DNA from: Oxalobacter formigenes
Lineage (GTDB): Bacteria; Pseudomonadota; Gammaproteobacteria; Burkholderiales; Burkholderiaceae_D
DNA length: 64,000 nt
Assembly: GCF_002127965.1 (NCBI RefSeq)
Contig: NZ_CP018787.1
Span: 558,001 to 622,000, forward strand
Direction: 5' to 3'
Below, piece by piece: positions 39,989 through 52,975 of the stretch (positions are counted from its first letter, which is position 1; each line of letters starts with the position of its first letter). Made by a program: the position numbers and the translations under genes. The notes beneath the pieces are model-generated. The model saw only the letters and a program-made list of their open reading frames with translations. It was not told the origin of the DNA and made no database searches.

Positions 39989-40307
39989 TAAAAGAAGAAA
40001 ATCCGTGTCATCAGTCAGCTGACTTTTTGCTCCCTGATCTTTGCTGAGCAAGATGAGATGTCCTTCCTCTGTGGCAATCAGGAATATATTGACGGCACGT
40101 GTTTTCCCTACTTCCGGTGTGCCAGACATCTCCAAAGATCTCATGTGGTTTTGGAATCCATTTTTGCCGCCGGTATCCCGGCTATTCCTTACTTTTCCAA
40201 ATTGGGTGTAATGCAATGAATCTATGGTTTTTAATGCTGTATGGACAATTTTCCGGCAGTGAAATTTTCAGATGCATTTCATTTGTATTCAGGCGGATTT
40301 GTTTAAA

Positions 40308-40393
40308 TTGACCTGAATCAATATTGCCGGATTGATCTAGGTCAATGAAGTCAAATTGACTTATGTCAATGGTGCCAAATTGACCTAGGTCAA
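40308..40393 (+). promoter_or_regulatory. Four tandem FNR/FixK-like operator boxes upstream of oxc
   Basis: Four 14-bp palindromes begin at 40308, 40332, 40356 and 40380: TTGACCTGAATCAA, TTGATCTAGGTCAA, TTGACTTATGTCAA and TTGACCTAGGTCAA. All share the frame TTGAY-N4-RTCAA, the site type bound by FNR/FixK/DNR-type CRP-family regulators. The spacing is exactly 24 bp in every step, and short flanks (AAAT before, G-rich after) are partly repeated too, so the array looks like a duplicated unit. The last box is centred 41-42 bp before a possible transcription start near 40428. Regulator identity is inferred from the motif alone. Confidence 0.7.
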
Positions 40394-40408
40394 CGGGATT
40401 TTTAAAGG

Positions 40409-40422
40409 GTATGCGGCATACT
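40409..40422 (+). promoter_or_regulatory. Possible oxc -10 region within a small dyad
   Basis: CATACT at 40417-40422 matches the -10 consensus in four of six positions and lies at the distance from the last FNR-like box expected for class II activation, with no recognisable -35. It overlaps a perfect inverted repeat, GTATGC / GCATAC around one G (40409-40421), which could be an additional operator. The start site is predicted near 40428-40429. Confidence 0.4.
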
Positions 40423-40476
40423 CGGAATTGACGTTAAACAACGTTTATCAAAACCAACCAAAGAAAGGTATTACTC

Positions 40477-42183
40477 ATGAGTAACGACGACAATGTAGAG
40501 TTGACTGATGGCTTTCATGTTTTGATCGATGCCCTGAAAATGAATGACATCGATACCATGTATGGTGTTGTCGGCATTCCTATCACGAACCTGGCTCGTA
40601 TGTGGCAAGATGACGGTCAGCGTTTTTACAGCTTCCGTCACGAACAACACGCAGGTTATGCAGCTTCTATCGCCGGTTACATCGAAGGAAAACCTGGCGT
40701 TTGCTTGACCGTTTCCGCCCCTGGCTTCCTGAACGGCGTGACTTCCCTGGCTCATGCAACCACCAACTGCTTCCCAATGATCCTGTTGAGCGGTTCCAGT
40801 GAACGTGAAATCGTCGATTTGCAACAGGGCGATTACGAAGAAATGGATCAGATGAATGTTGCACGTCCACACTGCAAAGCTTCTTTCCGTATCAACAGCA
40901 TCAAAGACATTCCAATCGGTATCGCTCGTGCAGTTCGCACCGCTGTATCCGGACGTCCAGGTGGTGTTTACGTTGACTTGCCAGCAAAACTGTTCGGTCA
41001 GACCATTTCTGTAGAAGAAGCTAACAAACTGCTCTTCAAACCAATCGATCCAGCTCCGGCACAGATTCCTGCTGAAGACGCTATCGCTCGCGCTGCTGAC
41101 CTGATCAAGAACGCCAAACGTCCAGTTATCATGCTGGGTAAAGGCGCTGCATACGCACAATGCGACGACGAAATCCGCGCACTGGTTGAAGAAACCGGCA
41201 TCCCATTCCTGCCAATGGGTATGGCTAAAGGCCTGCTGCCTGACAACCATCCACAATCCGCTGCTGCAACCCGTGCTTTCGCACTGGCACAGTGTGACGT
41301 TTGCGTACTGATCGGCGCTCGTCTGAACTGGCTGATGCAGCACGGTAAAGGCAAAACCTGGGGCGACGAACTGAAGAAATACGTTCAGATCGACATCCAG
41401 GCTAACGAAATGGACAGCAACCAGCCTATCGCTGCACCAGTTGTTGGTGACATCAAGTCCGCCGTTTCCCTGCTCCGCAAAGCACTGAAAGGCGCTCCAA
41501 AAGCTGACGCTGAATGGACCGGCGCTCTGAAAGCCAAAGTTGACGGCAACAAAGCCAAACTGGCTGGCAAGATGACTGCCGAAACCCCATCCGGAATGAT
41601 GAACTACTCCAATTCCCTGGGCGTTGTTCGTGACTTCATGCTGGCAAATCCGGATATTTCCCTGGTTAACGAAGGCGCTAATGCACTCGACAACACTCGT
41701 ATGATTGTTGACATGCTGAAACCACGCAAACGTCTTGACTCCGGTACCTGGGGTGTTATGGGTATTGGTATGGGCTACTGCGTTGCTGCAGCTGCTGTTA
41801 CCGGCAAACCGGTTATCGCTGTTGAAGGCGATAGCGCATTCGGTTTCTCCGGTATGGAACTGGAAACCATCTGCCGTTACAACCTGCCAGTTACCGTTAT
41901 CATCATGAACAATGGTGGTATCTATAAAGGTAACGAAGCAGATCCACAACCAGGCGTTATCTCCTGTACCCGTCTGACCCGTGGTCGTTACGACATGATG
42001 ATGGAAGCATTTGGCGGTAAAGGTTATGTTGCCAATACTCCAGCAGAACTGAAAGCTGCTCTGGAAGAAGCTGTTGCTTCCGGCAAACCATGCCTGATCA
42101 ACGCGATGATCGATCCAGACGCTGGTGTCGAATCTGGCCGTATCAAGAGCCTGAACGTTGTAAGTAAAGTTGGCAAGAAATAA
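40477..42183 (+). CDS. oxc: Oxalyl-CoA decarboxylase
   Basis: Oxc is the thiamine-diphosphate enzyme that decarboxylates oxalyl-CoA to formyl-CoA and CO2, consuming a cytoplasmic proton and so driving the oxalate-based proton gradient. The 568-residue length equals that of the O. formigenes enzyme. E56 (FRHEQHAG) activates ThDP; Y120 and E121 (QQGDYEEM), and S553 and R555 near the C-terminus (ESGRIKS) match its known active-site residues. The ThDP motif [19 protein letters not shown], ending with NN, is near residue 450. AAGAAAGG lies 8 nt before the ATG. Proline is mostly CCA, unlike most neighbours. The coenzyme A transferase gene is not nearby. Confidence 0.98.
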
Positions 42184-51718: not shown

Positions 51719-52975
51719 ATGAATAATCCACAAACAGGACAATCAACAGGCCTCTTGGGCAATCGTTGGTTCTACTTGGTATTAGCAGTTTTGCTGATGT
51801 GTATGATCTCGGGTGTCCAATATTCCTGGACACTGTACGCTAACCCGGTTAAAGACAACCTTGGCGTTTCTTTGGCTGCGGTTCAGACGGCTTTCACACT
51901 CTCTCAGGTCATTCAAGCTGGTTCTCAGCCTGGTGGTGGTTACTTCGTTGATAAATTCGGTCCAAGAATTCCATTGATGTTCGGTGGTGCGATGGTTCTC
52001 GCTGGCTGGACCTTCATGGGTATGGTTGACAGTGTTCCTGCTCTGTATGCTCTTTATACTCTGGCCGGTGCAGGTGTTGGTATCGTTTACGGTATCGCGA
52101 TGAACACGGCTAACAGATGGTTCCCGGACAAACGCGGTCTGGCTTCCGGTTTCACCGCTGCCGGTTACGGTCTGGGTGTTCTGCCGTTCCTGCCACTGAT
52201 CAGCTCCGTTCTGAAAGTTGAAGGTGTTGGCGCAGCATTCATGTACACCGGTTTGATCATGGGTATCCTGATTATCCTGATCGCTTTCGTTATCCGTTTC
52301 CCTGGCCAGCAAGGCGCCAAAAAACAAATCGTTGTTACCGACAAGGATTTCAATTCTGGCGAAATGCTGAGAACACCACAATTCTGGGTTCTGTGGACCG
52401 CATTCTTTTCCGTTAACTTTGGTGGTTTGCTGCTGGTTGCCAACAGCGTCCCTTACGGTCGCAGCCTCGGTCTTGCCGCAGGTGTGCTGACGATCGGTGT
52501 TTCGATCCAGAACCTGTTCAATGGTGGTTGCCGTCCTTTCTGGGGTTTCGTTTCCGATAAAATCGGCCGTTACAAAACCATGTCCGTCGTTTTCGGTATC
52601 AATGCTGTTGTTCTCGCACTTTTCCCGACGATTGCTGCCTTGGGCGATGTAGCCTTTATCGCCATGTTGGCAATCGCATTCTTCACATGGGGTGGTAGCT
52701 ACGCTCTGTTCCCATCGACCAACAGCGATATTTTCGGTACGGCATACTCTGCCAGAAACTATGGTTTCTTCTGGGCTGCAAAAGCAACTGCCTCGATCTT
52801 CGGTGGTGGTCTGGGTGCTGCAATTGCAACCAACTTCGGATGGAATACCGCTTTCCTGATTACTGCGATTACTTCTTTCATCGCATTTGCTCTGGCTACC
52901 TTCGTTATTCCAAGAATGGGCCGTCCAGTCAAGAAAATGGTCAAATTGTCTCCAGAAGAAAAAGCTGTACATTAA
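51719..52975 (+). CDS. oxlT: Oxalate:formate antiporter
   Basis: OxlT is a major-facilitator exchanger that imports divalent oxalate for monovalent formate, making the membrane potential that powers the cell. The 418-residue length equals that of the O. formigenes protein. Twelve hydrophobic segments are visible. The substrate-binding charges are present: R272 (GGCRPFWGF) and K355 (FWAAKATAS), the latter in helix 11. The cytoplasmic loop NRWFPDKRGLASG is typical of the family. Codon use favours GGT and GTT, consistent with high expression. It is monocistronic, with its own strong terminator, 9.5 kb from oxc. Confidence 0.98.
   Translation: MNNPQTGQSTGLLGNRWFYLVLAVLLMCMISGVQYSWTLYANPVKDNLGVSLAAVQTAFTLSQVIQAGSQPGGGYFVDKFGPRIPLMFGGAMVLAGWTFMGMVDSVPALYALYTLAGAGVGIVYGIAMNTANRWFPDKRGLASGFTAAGYGLGVLPFLPLISSVLKVEGVGAAFMYTGLIMGILIILIAFVIRFPGQQGAKKQIVVTDKDFNSGEMLRTPQFWVLWTAFFSVNFGGLLLVANSVPYGRSLGLAAGVLTIGVSIQNLFNGGCRPFWGFVSDKIGRYKTMSVVFGINAVVLALFPTIAALGDVAFIAMLAIAFFTWGGSYALFPSTNSDIFGTAYSARNYGFFWAAKATASIFGGGLGAAIATNFGWNTAFLITAITSFIAFALATFVIPRMGRPVKKMVKLSPEEKAVH

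Follow-up and report, generated by a model that had tools for sequence, protein, structure and literature searches.

An array of four CRP/FNR-type palindromes upstream of oxc in Oxalobacter formigenes and a candidate regulator linked to boxes of this type

Oxalate breakdown bears on kidney stones, and the question raised by this locus is what four regularly spaced palindromes might do in front of oxc, the gene for oxalyl-CoA decarboxylase in Oxalobacter formigenes, and which protein might read them. The window, by which we mean the whole 64-kb stretch of DNA analysed, contains four matches to the pattern TTGAY-N4-RTCAA. All of them lie upstream of oxc, the step between them is exactly 24 bp, and the end of the array is 83 bp from the ATG. 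The features are listed here, with centres numbered from a presumed transcription start.

40308..40321, no strand: box 1, TTGACCTGAATCAA, the distal box; centre about -113.5; same distance from the ATG in genome G003
40332..40345, no strand: box 2, TTGATCTAGGTCAA; centre about -89.5; position kept in G003
40356..40369, no strand: box 3, TTGACTTATGTCAA; centre about -65.5; position kept in G003
40380..40393, no strand: box 4, TTGACCTAGGTCAA, the proximal box; putative class II activator site, centre about -41.5 to -42.5; present in 12/12 promoters
40322..40379, no strand: stretch from box 1 to box 4, with 10-bp spacers at 40322-40331, 40346-40355 and 40370-40379; spacer length kept between the source genome (G000) and G003
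40417..40422, plus strand: putative -10 element CATACT, 23 nt after box 4; offset 22-23 nt in 12/12 oxc promoters
40428..40441, no strand: degenerate box TTGACGTTAAACAA with 1 mismatch, over the presumed start, 48 bp (2 x 24) past box 4
40477..42183, plus strand: oxc, oxalyl-CoA decarboxylase, 568 aa; NCBIfam models at 912.7 and 887.9 bits, both over cut-off

An earlier note on this DNA had placed the palindromes at 40308, 40332, 40356 and 40380 with an exact 24-bp step, and this is confirmed. Among 100 shuffled windows none had four boxes (mean 0.53, sd 0.78, largest 3), and the analytic expectation for four boxes in register at a step of 24, from base composition only, is about 2.5e-17. All four match exactly the TTGA-N6-TCAA palindrome with a YNNNNR centre that marks a CRP/FNR-type operator. 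The whole 2.47-Mb genome holds 16 places with TTGAY-N4-RTCAA, against 7 for a reversed control pattern; since four of the 16 are the oxc array, many of the others may be there by chance. The partly repeated flanks from which a tandem duplication had been proposed are real (41-nt units, 63% and 78% identity), but they only suggest such an origin for the array. It had also been argued that a step of about 2.3 helical turns keeps the boxes off one face of the DNA. This is right for neighbours, which are 103-111 degrees apart (10.5-10.4 bp per turn), but not for the two ends: 3 x 24 = 72 bp is 6.9 turns, and boxes 1 and 4 are therefore only about 28-51 degrees off the same face (10.4-10.5 bp per turn).

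The genus sample comprised 13 genomes, several of them drafts, all with an oxc match, and 12 have a readable upstream region (that of G002 is cut). A proximal box occurs in all 12 of these promoters, 93-99 bp before the ATG, with CTAG as its N4 in 9/12 and TTAG in 3/12. Conservation in other strains, on which the earlier note had staked its proposal, thus extends to the proximal box but not to the array, which among these species representatives is found in two of the 12 promoters, those of G000 and G003. Two boxes are present in G006 (72 bp apart) and in G004 (74 bp apart, 17-42 degrees out of phase at 10.5 and 10.4 bp per turn), and the other eight promoters have a single box. The G000 and G003 arrays align with no indel. 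Their fixed box positions are identical in 32/32 cases, compared with 5/8 of the Y/R positions, 11/16 of the N4 positions and 16/30 of the positions in the 10-bp spacers, and the difference between 32/32 and the 27/46 of N4 and spacers together has a p of 7e-6; fourfold sites within oxc are 65% identical. Because the fixed positions are all kept while the spacers diverge, all four boxes appear to be held by selection in this pair, and the box nearest oxc is, judged by its distribution, the ancient core of the array.

A sample of 392 family genomes, taken from a larger group, was searched for exact boxes with 2-31 bp between them. Two such boxes occur in 51/392 genomes, against 3/392 for the reversed control, a single pair at 24 bp is present in G347, and four consecutive boxes occur in G000 and G003 alone. 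Two-box pairs are therefore scattered through the 392 genomes, and the 24-bp four-site array is unmatched elsewhere in the sample.

The proximal box is followed in every readable promoter by a -10-like hexamer, CATACT (CATAAT in G004), at 23 nt in nine and 22 nt in three. If transcription is assumed to start 6-7 nt past this hexamer, box 4 is centred at about -41.5 to -42.5, and on this spacing it is a candidate class II CRP/FNR activator site. That a single class II box is conserved argues for activation as the core function, and conservation and spacing together bear out the earlier assignment of the boxes to oxc. No sigma-70 -35/-10 pair was found in 40200-40480, which is weak evidence as shuffles average 1.1. 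An array of -35 hexamers was also considered, each box starting with TTGAC, and was set aside on this empty promoter scan, as was an RNA element in the same interval, where there is no Rfam match at gathering score.

Class II FNR/CRP-dependent promoters of E. coli, such as narG, dmsA and nirB, carry a palindrome of the TTGAY-N4-RTCAA type, centred near -41.5 like that of oxc. The oxc promoter differs from them in having four sites at a fixed 24-bp step and a likely regulator other than FNR. Class III CRP-type promoters have several activator sites, and they resemble oxc in combining one proximal class II site with upstream sites that may contact RNA polymerase alpha. Upstream activator sites at class I positions have a preferred helical phase. 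The middle boxes of oxc, at about -65.5 and -89.5, are off the phase that we take to be that of class I, and in contrast to class III promoters four copies seem unusual. In the accessible part of one survey (PMC3688515), 19 of 23 FNR-activated E. coli promoters with a known start have a site no more than 4 nt from -41.5; in the direct regulon, one site is found in 89% of the FNR peaks.

The source genome does contain CRP/FNR-family genes, for which the earlier note had proposed to look. There are three such proteins. One is FNR-like, and one is of CRP type, with scores below cut-off for its best NCBIfam models (CRP, 49.7 bits; YeiL, 45.3 bits). The other we call OxaR, a working name (the same string in the literature is unrelated by title, among the matches listed). 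OxaR is a wing-less protein of 202 aa encoded at G000:C1:362646-363254, outside the window. Orthologs are present in 9/13 genus genomes including G000, with 76-97% identity to the G000 copy; that of G011 is split over two contigs, and the search match in G001 is the FNR-like protein and is excluded from the nine. In G000, oxaR lies between the 3' part of an oxalate/formate-antiporter-family gene (TIGR04259, 256 bits on 213 residues, cut-off 335) and a divergent formyl-CoA-transferase paralog (TIGR03253, 520.7 over a cut-off of 504.2). The CoA-transferase copy beside OxaR in G003 (G003:C1:143295-143814) was matched only as two end pieces. A distant oxlT relative is also found in the window itself, at 51761-52909; it is 35% identical to the OxaR-linked copy of G012 and has no exact box.

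Both PF00027 and PF13545 are detected in 12/12 aligned OxaR members at E up to 0.01, and the OxaR profile matches the structures 3dn7 (1.1e-10), CRP (6.4e-6) and DNR (4.5e-5). The last 24 residues, which include a SxETLSR helix, contain 22 that are invariant in 12 sequences ranging from Oxalobacter to Herminiimonas, and the E..SR of this helix is presumably the pattern of FNR. The predicted structure has a pLDDT of 57.7 and is too poor to use. These weak but consistent matches place OxaR in the CRP/FNR superfamily, at some distance from its known members. It resembles the wing-less CRP-type protein 3dn7 in its length, its cNMP-binding-like domain and a C-terminus just past the recognition helix, and differs from regulators of that type in its linkage to oxalate genes and in Pfam domains that, in the G000 member, fall below the curated cut-off. 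The half-site of FixK/DNR-type regulators is TTGAY/RTCAA. OxaR shares with them this half-site and the weak profile match to DNR, and is set apart from them by the genes to which it is linked, namely oxc and those of the CoA-transferase and the antiporter family; genes for nitrogen oxides were not noticed in the stretches that were read.

In 9/9 genus genomes with OxaR a box is present between oxaR and the CoA-transferase gene, as two copies 38-40 bp apart in eight of them and as a single copy in G010. In each of the nine, TATGAT follows the copy on the CoA-transferase side at exactly 23 nt. The N4 of these boxes varies, and its constraint at oxc, as opposed to oxaR, may reflect a second reader or selection for tighter binding. 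The same arrangement is seen in another genus (g41), where the three genomes that the family-wide sample brought in with OxaR all show a box pair with TATGAT at 23 nt, the CoA-transferase being in view in two. An identical box 23 nt before TATGAT precedes an operon for a TPP enzyme and a CoA-transferase in G000 and G003. In G000 this operon (L032, G000:C1:551155-554202) encodes a second formyl-CoA-transferase copy and an unclassified TPP enzyme, which shares 27% identity with Oxc and is below the cut-off of all of its 25 best NCBIfam models.

The association extends to more distant oxc loci. Nine of 80 oxc loci from named genomes (the best 80 of 592, some with short upstream flanks) contain an OxaR ortholog, seven from Herminiimonas/Oxalicibacterium/Oxalobacteraceae and two from other MAGs (L136 and L168). 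All nine have a box in the interval from oxc to the likely oxaR start, at most 420 bp from oxc; in L136 and L168 an open frame spans the box, and the ATG that fits the orthologs lies downstream of it. The box is followed by TATGAT at 23 nt in seven of the nine and at 22 nt in L136, and by TACCAT at 23 nt in L168. The oxc box that aerobic relatives carry in the oxaR-oxc intergenic region mostly has CGGG as its N4. Of the 71 loci with no OxaR in view, 67 have no box near oxc and four have one: L116 (O. paraformigenes), L139 (TATGAT at 23 nt), and L175 and L185 (no good -10 at that spacing). With one of the nine scored as a miss, the Fisher p for the association is 1.5e-7, the loci being related and not independent. 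Thus oxaR adjoins a box-bearing oxalate-gene promoter in 9/9 Oxalobacter genomes with OxaR and in 9/9 OxaR-bearing loci.

On the basis of these observations, we think it reasonably probable that the four palindromes are operators of a CRP/FNR-superfamily activator, OxaR, which would serve the oxalate genes. What the sequences show is the boxes, how they are conserved and spaced, and that OxaR is linked to such boxes; that OxaR binds them and activates, where transcription starts and what boxes 1-3 do is inferred. A dimer of OxaR would sit on box 4, whose centre is about 41.5-42.5 bp ahead of the presumed start, and would recruit RNA polymerase in the class II manner to a promoter that seems to have no good -35 element. 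Boxes 1-3 would be extra copies, the full set of which is found only in what is probably the O. formigenes / O. paraformigenes lineage. They might raise the local concentration of activator and attract more dimers upstream, and box 1 is on nearly the same face of the DNA as box 4. The outcome would be a very high and steady transcription of oxc. The most economical reading of the array would be that oxc output is made higher and steadier by having several activator sites. The earlier interpretation is therefore right at the level of the superfamily and for oxc, and probably wrong as to FNR.

The obvious alternative is that an FNR-like protein, and not OxaR, activates oxc from the boxes as a global regulator of the anaerobic type, which we consider rather unlikely. 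The protein in question (G000:C1:883576-884445, L001:1402-2271) has an FNR-type recognition helix, LETVSR, its best PDB match is FNR (4.6e-35), and the motif of the oxc boxes presumably fits the FNR consensus. It is also the sole CRP/FNR-family protein found in G001, where the oxc box is kept, but OxaR is missing there next to a scaffold gap 1.3 kb after oxlT. An ortholog is present in only 8/13 genus genomes, as against a box in 12/12 readable promoters; four of the five genomes where it was not found are drafts at 76-91% completeness, and the fifth, G006, is 99% complete. FNR has four cysteines that bind a [4Fe-4S] cluster. In five aligned orthologs of the FNR-like protein the four ligand cysteines are not all present, the only conserved ones being C42 and C134. 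We take C122 to be a ligand position of FNR; C134 does not align with it, and with no conserved cysteine there redox sensing is doubtful. A box upstream of the FNR-like gene in G000 might have pointed to auto-regulation, and it has no counterpart near the gene in G003. Patchy presence and cysteine loss thus weaken a redox FNR as the obvious reader. A motif of FNR/FixK/DNR type had been claimed for the boxes. Their look as CRP/FNR-superfamily operators stands, but FNR itself is less likely as reader, given an FNR-like protein in 8/13 genomes, its two conserved cysteines and a gene neighbourhood that points to OxaR. The FNR-like protein has, to judge from its sequence, probably lost the [4Fe-4S] redox sensor, in an anaerobe.

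A difficulty for OxaR comes from G004, G005 and G006, which keep the oxc box and in which no OxaR, FNR-like protein or PF00027 match was found at E up to 0.01. A box with no OxaR found is therefore seen in four genomes, these three and, at its scaffold gap, G001. In G004 oxlT is intact and the neighbouring gene is not OxaR. In G005 and G006 oxlT is cut by a contig end, and in G004 and G006 fragments of a second CoA-transferase copy are found at the ends of contigs. The expected place of OxaR is thus incompletely assembled and its absence is unproven, yet the pattern counts against a pure OxaR model. The TPP-enzyme promoters of G004 and G006 have no box, as expected if OxaR is gone; the oxc box nonetheless stays. 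When open reading frames were read by eye, no transcription factor was recognised within about 7-9 kb on either side of oxc in these three genomes. Weak HTH matches in them, those inspected by eye, looked like proteins of other kinds: two ATPases or ATPase-like proteins, one of which has an HTH at its C-terminus, a MarR-like protein, an activator of sigma-54 type and an unclassified HTH protein. There are 44 box sites in G005 and G006, 23 of which were placed relative to genes, and three belong to oxc. In both genomes TTGACCTATRTCAA boxes precede a gene for a membrane protein of 202-205 aa (L200:1501, L201:1501), and by a count made by eye a second half-box there is followed at 22-23 nt by a -10-like hexamer. 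A further box in G006 lies upstream of an oxlT copy (L231:396-409, G006:C48), on a contig that starts inside oxlT.

These genomes would be explained if an unrecognised regulator of another family read the extended palindrome TTGAYYTAGGTCAA at oxc, leaving OxaR to its own divergent promoter and a few others. We hold this to be unlikely. It would account for the box in three genomes with no detected CRP/FNR protein, for an N4 of CTAG or TTAG in 12/12 proximal boxes when the N4 of oxaR-linked boxes is free, and for the TTGACCTATRTCAA boxes before the membrane-protein gene in G005 and G006, which is unrelated. However, the half-sites and the 23-nt spacing are identical at the oxaR-linked and oxc promoters, the oxc box of the aerobic relatives sits between oxaR and oxc and mostly has CGGG as its N4, and the three genomes concerned are drafts with the contig breaks described above. 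It is improbable that the main role of the upstream boxes is instead to titrate the regulator, as decoys or dose-setters, and not to serve as activator sites. Neighbours 103-111 degrees apart are not simply stacked, which would suit such a role, but box 4 is universal and has class II spacing, box 1 is near the same face, and box pairs recur at 72 bp (G006) and 74 bp (G004). Finally, a chance or neutral tandem repeat is scarcely credible: the flanks are indeed partly repeated, but the in-register expectation is of the order of 1e-17, and 32/32 fixed positions are kept as against 27/46 others.

For OxaR as the activator of oxc, the known protein levels cut both ways. In the accessible part of PMC4764995, the two strongest bands of O. 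formigenes are those of Oxc and Frc, and neither changes from log phase (with oxalate) to stationary phase (with no oxalate); the steady abundance of Oxc fits a strong, steady oxc promoter. However, the main frc gene has no exact box within 500 bp in 6/6 genomes where its start was found (that of G007 was not found). An abundant Frc with no box means that high expression of an oxalate gene does not need one, which counts against our explanation, and since Frc reaches its level in this way we can only infer that the boxes drive the output of oxc. A native regulator of oxc in Oxalobacter was not found in the open-licence literature, among the matches listed, nor in the accessible parts of PMC9812493, PMC12927642, PMC7190790, PMC8899768 and PMC10192776. 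The one source where FNR and oxc occur together, PMC8899768, concerns, in its accessible part, an engineered E. coli promoter and not the native one.

What is new here is a candidate regulator, OxaR, that is linked to oxalate genes and to boxes of this type. With a candidate regulator, an operator and natural promoters that have one, two or four boxes, the control of oxalate degradation can be tested directly, and the natural promoter series bears on the number of activator sites that are of use to a bacterial promoter. A bolder proposal, which we put forward tentatively and regard as rather doubtful, is that oxalate breakdown across the Oxalobacteraceae is under the control of wing-less CRP/FNR-type activators that form a family not described before. 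In the O. formigenes / O. paraformigenes lineage, the single oxc operator would then have been multiplied to a helically spiralling array of four sites in 24-bp steps, turning an inducible gene into a permanently maximal one, and the number of operators at a promoter would be a tunable trait of gut bacteria that degrade oxalate.

Two minor observations may be added. In G005, C32 carries three copies of TTGACAAGGGTCAA with steps of 20 and 22 bp (L230:4546-4601), and two more copies 8.6 kb off. In G003 the degenerate box TTGACGTTAAACAA has a counterpart, TTGACGTTGAACAA, with a similar half-site in G003, G004 and G006, and the degenerate box could be a repressing site.
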